Below, one piece after another: positions 32,977-34,482 of a stretch of 64,000 bases of DNA. Position 1 is the stretch's first letter. Every line of letters starts with the position of its first letter. The stretch comes from Streptomyces coeruleorubidus (GTDB taxonomy: Bacteria > Actinomycetota > Actinomycetes > Streptomycetales > Streptomycetaceae): assembly GCF_028885415.1 (NCBI RefSeq), contig NZ_CP118527.1, forward strand, positions 5,828,001 to 5,892,000, in the 5' to 3' direction. The position numbers were made by a program, and so were the translations under genes. The notes under the pieces were generated by a model. That model saw only the letters and a program-made list of their open reading frames with translations. It searched no databases and was not told the origin of the DNA.

Positions 32977-32995
32977 GGGCCTTGCGGCAAGGCCC
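32977..32995 (+). promoter_or_regulatory. Rifamycin-associated element (RAE)
   Basis: GGGCCTTGCGGCAAGGCCC is a perfect 19-bp palindrome around a central G, starting 75 bp upstream of the rox GTG. It matches, as I recall it, the rifamycin-associated element found before rifampin-inactivating genes (rox, rph, arr, helR) in actinomycetes, where it drives induction by rifamycins. TTATAG at 32963-32968 just before it may be part of the promoter. Confidence 0.85.
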
Positions 32996-33051
32996 TCTTC
33001 GCCCCGCAGAATCACCGGCCGAAGCCGAAATCGCGGAAATTGGGGGCTGTG

Positions 33052-34482
33052 GTGTTGGACGTGATCGTGGTCGGCGGGGGACCGACCGGGATGATGCTGG
33101 CCGGCGAGCTGCGGTTGCACGGGGTGCGCGTGGTCGTGCTGGAGAAGCTGGCCGAACCGACCGGGCAGTCCCGCGCGCTCGGCATCCATGTGCGCAGCAT
33201 CGAGCTGATGGACCAGCGCGGACTGCTGGAGCGGTTCCTGCCGCTCGGCCGGAAGTACGAGACGGGCGGGTTCTTCGCCGGGATCGGCAAGACGTGGCCC
33301 GCCCGGATGGACACCGCGCATTCATACGTGCTCGGCATCCCGCAGAGCGTCACCGAGCGCCTGCTGACCGAGCACGCCGCCGAGCTCGGCGCCGAGATCC
33401 GGCGCGGCTGCGAGCTGGTGGGACTGAGCCAGGACGACGACGGTGTGACCGCGGAGCTGGCCGACGGCACGCGGCTGCGCTCGCGCTACCTCGTGGCCTG
33501 CGACGGCGGCCGCAGCACCGTGCGCAAGCTGCTCGGCGTGGGCTTCCCCGGCGAACCCGCCAGGATCGAGACGCTGCTGGGCGAGATGGAGGTGGGCGTG
33601 CCGCCGGAGGAGCTGGCGGCCGCGGTGGCCGAAGTCCGCAAGACGCAGTGGCGGTTCGGGACCATGCCCCTCGGGGACGGGCGGTACCGCGTCATCGTGC
33701 CTGCCGAGGGGGTGACGGAGGACCGGACGGTGCCGCCGACCCTGGAGGAGTTCAAGCAGCGGCTGCGGCACTTCGCCGGCACCGACTTCGGCGTGCACTC
33801 GCCGCGCTGGCTGTCCCGCTTCGGCGACGCCACCCGGCTGGCCGAGCGCTACCGCGTCGGCCGGGTGCTGCTCGCCGGCGACGCCGCGCACATCCATCCG
33901 CCGACCGGCGGGCAGGGGCTCAACCTCGGCATCCAGGACGCGTTCAACCTCGGCTGGAAGCTGGCCGCCGAAGTGCGCGGCTGGGCACCGGAGGGGCTGC
34001 TGGACAGCTACCACACCGAACGGCGCCCGGTGGCCGCCGCCGTGCTGGACAACACCCGCGCGCAGACCGAGCTGCTGAGCTCCGAGCCGGGGCCGAGGGC
34101 CGTGCGCCGGCTGGTCGAGGAACTGATGGACTTCGAGGAGGTGAACCGGTACCTGATCGAGAAGATCACCGCGATCTCGGTCCGCTACGACTTCGGCGAG
34201 GGCCACCAACTCCTCGGCCGGCGCCTGCGGGACGTGACGCTGAAGCGGGGTCGCCTCTACGAGCTGATGCGCGGGGGCCGCGGACTGCTGCTCGACCAGA
34301 CCGGCCGGCTGTCGGTGGCGGGCTGGGCGGACCGGGTCGACCACGTCGTCGACGTCAGCGAGGAACTGGACGTCCCCGGGGTGCTGCTGCGGCCGGACGG
34401 CCACGTGGCGTGGGTCGGCGAGGACCAGCGGGAACTGCTCGACCGGCTGCCGCGGTGGTTCGGCGCGGCGACAACCGGCTGA
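33052..34482 (+). CDS. rox: Rifampin monooxygenase (FAD-dependent)
   Basis: Product is 476 aa, a class A flavoprotein monooxygenase. The FAD/Rossmann motif [17 protein letters not shown] is at residues ~5-21, the DG motif is [15 protein letters not shown], and the GD motif is [20 protein letters not shown] at ~270-290. The overall pattern ([54 protein letters not shown]) matches rifampin monooxygenases of Streptomyces, which hydroxylate the rifamycin naphthyl ring and linearise the ansa bridge using NADPH and O2. GTG at 33052 follows GGGGG, and longer frames cross the RAE. The RAE upstream supports rifamycin-inducible resistance. Related polyketide hydroxylases are the main alternative. Confidence 0.9.

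Follow-up and report, generated by a model that had tools for sequence, protein, structure and literature searches.

The genes rox and helR are reported as RAE (rifamycin-associated element) genes of Streptomyces venezuelae in a 2022 review, which leaves open how the element senses rifamycins (PMC10719064). A paper of January 2026 calls the mechanism of the RAE unresolved (PMC12802891). In Mycobacterium smegmatis and M. abscessus, the review describes an RAE at helD/helR that overlaps the −35 element of a sense promoter, P2, and is needed for induction (PMC10719064). A different arrangement has been described for helD and pps of Bacillus subtilis, which are controlled by RNA polymerase itself: an antisense polymerase blocked by rifamycin lets the sense promoter fire (PMC12802891). 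A literature search, with the primary RAE and HelR papers outside its reach, returned no antisense promoter at the RAE; the main text of PMC13246000 makes no mention of the element, and PMC11464796 likewise has none.

We analyzed a window of 64,000 nucleotides of Streptomyces coeruleorubidus DNA, for which a preliminary description had proposed a perfect 19-bp palindrome of the RAE type ahead of a Rox-type monooxygenase gene. The 19-mer GGGCCTTGCGGCAAGGCCC is indeed present as an exact match (32977–32995), and it is identical to its own reverse complement at all but the central base; ‘perfect’ therefore applies only if this base is ignored. As expected of an RAE, it is a 19-bp palindrome around CTTGCGGCAAG, its core is identical in relatives and it sits a short distance ahead of a rifamycin-resistance gene of an actinomycete, with a gap of 56 bp to the start codon of rox. 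The product of this gene matches the NCBIfam family NF033145 rif_monoox (924.9 bits, cut-off 800), aligns end to end over 476 residues with its best PDB sequence match 5vqb (832.5 bits) and contains the domains PF01494 (FAD-binding) and PF21274 (ring-hydroxylase C-terminal) above their cut-offs. Both the assignment as a Rox-type monooxygenase and the combined reading as RAE plus Rox were borne out by the sequence. A chance palindrome was ruled out by shuffles, by the scan of the genome and by the comparison of sites given below: in 100 dinucleotide shuffles of the window, two matches at ≤3 mismatches never occurred (mean 0.08). Induction of rox by rifamycins and their inactivation by its product, also part of the preliminary description, would follow from published work on the family. 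In itself the locus is unremarkable: both the element and the gene are already known.

Two further observations concern the region upstream of rox. Overlapping frames on the minus strand (32102–32778) contain a 12-residue stretch that presumably resembles the terpene synthase metal-binding motif; no Pfam match was found in either frame, and together they are possibly a degenerate gene. A long purine-only-like tract with GAAA/GGAA repeats (32850–32928; rich in T and C on the minus strand) adjoins the far side of the antisense terminator listed in Table 1.

Table 1. Features of the RAE–rox locus in positions of the window; Pas denotes the proposed antisense promoter
Feature	Position	Strand	Remark
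RAE palindrome GGGCCTTGCGGCAAGGCCC	32977..32995	.	Exact match
rox, rifampin monooxygenase, 476 aa	33052..34482	+	GTG start 33052, stop 34480–34482
Proposed P2 −35, TTGCGG, inside RAE	32982..32987	+	19-bp spacing to nAnnnT, 140/143
Proposed P2 −10, CAGAAT	33007..33012	+	Predicted start ~33017–33019
Proposed Pas −35, TTGCCG, inside RAE, overlapping sense −35	32985..32990	-	139/143 spacing
Proposed Pas −10, TAAGTT	32960..32965	-	Predicted antisense start G 32953
Intrinsic-terminator-like hairpin, stem 10, loop 5, then TTTT	32925..32953	-	Terminator scan

Scanning the complete genome of the strain (9,411,092 bases in 1 contig) for the 19-mer had been suggested as a way to find other members such as helR. 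Two exact copies were found, the rox site and G000:C1:9123149-9123167, together with four further places at ≤3 mismatches, each of which has three. The second exact copy does precede helR: it lies 58 bp before a HelR of 718 aa (NCBIfam NF041254, 1304.3 bits, cut-off 750), and common blocks are present on both flanks of the two copies. A two-flank pattern run on the same genome returned the rox site and one chance place without an RAE; it missed the helR site, which has a deviating flank. For arr this genome yielded no match at E up to 0.001. Judged from sequence, rox and helR would form a two-gene rifamycin-response regulon here, with rph and rgt looked for via the RAE only.

Sites from other genomes were collected with the pattern GGNNCTTGCGGCAAGNNCC, which matched 201 of 246 genomes of the genus (34 of 246 when read backwards) and at least 118 stretches in a genome collection; a phylum scan with the pattern centre as S matched 37 of 396 genomes. 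Among the matches listed, 143 of 176 collected RAE-pattern sites have a resistance-gene match within 450 bp: rox in 53 cases, helR in 48, rph in 17, rgt in 13, arr in 11 and an MFS pump in one. Two sites have gene matches on both sides. Sites were kept for the promoter counts by gene and not by flank, and the 33 of 176 without a recognized gene within 450 bp were taken out of these counts and tested apart. The site counts exclude L002–L006 (L002 duplicates the site in L007, and L003–L006 are matches with three mismatches), and L181–L240 lie outside the 143-site counts. The reference rph and arr proteins score above NCBIfam cut-offs; the best NCBIfam family of the reference rgt is NF000354 with 507.6, below its cut-off of 800. 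Among flank-anchored sites (L155–L240, n = 69) a gene was assigned in 66 (rox 21, rph 21, rgt 14, helR 10), and the three without a gene represent one site present in duplicate and one stretch that had been trimmed at the wrong end.

Several single sites show unusual surroundings. In Actinoplanes aureus (L060, 116–1794) an RAE with both flanks lies before a DHA2-like MFS efflux pump; the protein is below the NCBIfam cut-offs shown and could possibly be an efflux member of the RAE regulon. Two RAE modules occur ~4 kb apart in L193 (genome G015), and an RAE in Pseudonocardia xinjiangensis (L094) has rgt on one side and a divergent helR-like match on the other. At L198 (2300–3050, minus strand) the RAE is followed by an rgt-like remnant, with a helR-like start ~500 bp on. 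A new RAE gene at L170 and L198 was considered and rejected, as a remnant of the rgt start and then the start of helR could be recognized by eye.

The conserved module extends well past the 19-mer on both sides. In the 143 sites we searched both strands for a −10-like hexamer after a TTG-type hexamer inside the RAE, testing every spacer length between 12 and 25 bp. On the antisense strand, TAnnnT was found at a spacer of 19 bp in 139 of 143 sites, compared with 0 or 1 at each of the other spacers; the misses are L123, L154, L159 and L075. The last of these is from an archaeal record, its rph match is doubtful, and it was kept in the counts as a miss. At the same spacer the sense strand carries nAnnnT in 140 of 143 sites, mostly CAnAAT (with C as first base in 93% of 103 sites) and never TAnnnT. 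The two −10-like elements occupy mirror positions about the palindrome centre. Looser peaks of nAnnnT were seen at 21 bp (27/143) and 22 bp (41/143) on the sense strand and at 25 bp (87/142) on the antisense strand. The sites are related by descent: when they were thinned until no two flanks shared 60%, which removes kinship only partly, the element was retained on the antisense strand in 80 of 84 sites and on the sense strand in 81.

The antisense register is not certain, because in Streptomyces a hexamer at a spacer of 17 bp (TATAnG) resembles TATAAT more closely than the 19-bp hexamer does (mean match 3.94 versus 3.41). TATAnG fits the TATA-bearing sites and scores better there; as the antisense −10 it was rejected, with 26 of 30 TATA-less sites keeping TAnnnT at 19 bp. 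A promoter scan with spacers of 16–18 bp gave no hit in the rox and helR regions, which would be explained by the 19-bp spacer. In many loci, and ahead of different genes, the leader that follows the proposed P2 start (~41–68 from the RAE start; approximate sequence GGCCGAAGCCAGAACCTGCGGAAATGGG) shows fair conservation.

Downstream of the antisense −10, positions +7 and +8 are G in 97% and 94%, respectively; 76 of 84 thinned and 22 of 30 TATA-less sites retain this GG. A hairpin followed by a T-run begins at the GG. The terminator test covered 142 of the 143 sites: by the strict criterion 73 of 142 are positive, versus 0 of 129 control stretches located 60 bases further and 123 of 2840 mononucleotide shuffles, and by the loose criterion 89 versus 13. 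The first G of the GG is the exact start of 66 out of 117 hairpins, and the 8 bases after the hairpin are richer in T on the antisense strand (mean 3.84) than on the sense strand (mean 2.24). At the rox locus the minus strand carries this hairpin as GGCAAGGAGA-GATGA-TCTCCTTGCC-TTTT, and it was recovered by an independent terminator scan, which found two such sites in 501 bp at rox (0.9 expected from shuffles) and one at helR (0.2 expected). By the strict criterion 69 of 142 sites lack the terminator, and of the 11 arr loci 1 has it; being rare in the latter, it is not universal. Stem wobble pairs number 14 versus 10 by strand (p 0.54), and double-sided stem changes, which were seen in hairpins chosen for pairing, are weak evidence.

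The association of core and flanks was also examined in the opposite direction. A flanks-only pattern (both flanks with 30–38 free bases between them) gave matches in 90 of 121 genomes of the genus, and its backwards control gave 0 among the matches listed. The RAE core is present in 143 of 146 matches taken for inspection, 142 times at one spacing and once with one extra base; all 143 of these cores have G at positions 1–3 and C at 18–19, and 140 have C at 17. Among the 33 RAE palindromes without a recognized gene within 450 bp, the pair of −10s is missing in 31; the exceptions are L090, where the contig ends soon after, and L170 with its rgt remnant before the helR start. The flank signature separates resistance-gene RAEs from bare palindromes.

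On the basis of this sequence anatomy, the RAE is probably a −35 hub shared by two divergent, mutually exclusive promoters and assisted by a regulator. We propose more tentatively, with somewhat less than even confidence, that the promoters are mirror images and that the antisense one drives a futile unit (GG start, own terminator) that would block the gene until rifamycin is present. The sense promoter P2 would produce the mRNA, and Pas a terminated RNA of ~30 nt that may serve as a brake or decoy. If the −35 elements overlap as predicted, only one RNA polymerase could bind at a time, as occupancy of one promoter excludes the other. We formulated this exclusion as S(f) = (1-f)s/(1+(1-f)x+fy), where f is the rifamycin-bound fraction: the derivative is proportional to -(1+y) and always negative, and 200000 random parameter sets gave no sense ratio above 1. 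Since mutual exclusion alone does not yield induction, we infer a regulator that binds the RAE. The GGG/CCC arms hardly vary, though they lie outside the −35 hexamers, and together with the exclusion algebra they point to a dimeric RAE-reading protein. This putative regulator, a less certain part of the proposal than the promoters, would read the palindrome and free or favour P2 in the presence of rifamycin. With functions taken from the published families, Rox would then hydroxylate rifamycin and HelR would free the blocked polymerase.

The exclusion algebra also implies that the B. subtilis explanation is not simply transferable. RNA polymerase as the sole sensor at the RAE appears improbable to us, even though helD and pps are so controlled and the antisense spacers in B. 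subtilis are also 19 bp (PMC12802891): the promoters proposed here diverge and overlap, and if occupancy is exclusive, the sense rate always decreases as the rifamycin-bound fraction grows. In B. subtilis itself, overlap abolished induction when the promoters were 17 bp closer, as reported in the same paper (PMC12802891), and sensing by polymerase only would leave the GGG/CCC arms unexplained. An alarm of the convergent dual-promoter type was not found at the collected sites, which have no common sense TAnnnT upstream. We give hardly any credence to an attenuator reading, in which the RAE would act as an RNA hairpin within a transcript that started further upstream. The palindrome is foldable as RNA, but pairing between positions 4 and 16 is present in 35 of 127 sites, most of which were fetched by the RAE pattern, so that other RAE positions were not free; on this count the hairpin was rejected. 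Moreover, at the rox locus no T-run follows the RAE on the sense strand, and the proposed P2 starts downstream of the RAE.

A simpler view, which we regard as unlikely but worth weighing, takes the RAE as a plain operator of a rifamycin-responsive regulator and the left block as either a sense P1 or another protein site. The sense strand also allows a reading of the left element, with nAnnnT at −18 in 141 of 143 sites, a sense P1 of M. smegmatis starts ~20 bp upstream of the RAE (PMC10719064, FEMS review), and deletion of the upstream half of the RAE abolished induction (PMC10719064). According to the review this deletion affects the sense −35 too (PMC10719064); on the present map it removes most of that element, and the map suggests that half-deletions of the RAE would hit more than one promoter. 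However, TAnnnT at −18 is limited to 10 of 143 sites on the sense strand, whereas the antisense reading, at the spacing that mirrors P2, yields TAnnnT in 139 of 143; T makes up 4% at −42, a position that a sense −35 would require; and the antisense-pointing terminator starts at the left block in 73 of 142 sites. A common upstream sense promoter was rejected after scanning starts from −85 to −6, as TAnnnT reached its maximum with the 10 sites at −18; the reporting threshold was passed at −24 (nAnnnT 87/142, TAnnnT 0) and at −18 (141 and 10 of 143). In 20 sites from 19 loci picked as likely Corynebacteriales, no upstream sense promoter reached a count of 3.

The two-sided anatomy of the RAE, as deduced here, may be new, and the two-promoter map with its named −10 elements, predicted antisense start and ~30-nt RNA makes the RAE mechanism directly testable. 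Compared with described systems, Rox resembles the rifampin monooxygenase of PDB 5vqb end to end and differs by ordinary sequence divergence. The S. venezuelae regulon has the same element and the same two genes; no difference from it was seen, and the wider two-sided anatomy is not part of its account in the review (PMC10719064). As would be the case here, sense and antisense promoters precede a rifampicin-resistance gene in the helD/pps alarm of B. subtilis, where they are convergent and ~39 bp apart (PMC12802891), whereas the promoters proposed for the RAE would be divergent with overlapping −35 elements. M. smegmatis has a reported upstream sense P1, in contrast to the 143 sites compared here, which share the RAE with its two mirrored −10-like elements and have no common upstream sense TAnnnT.
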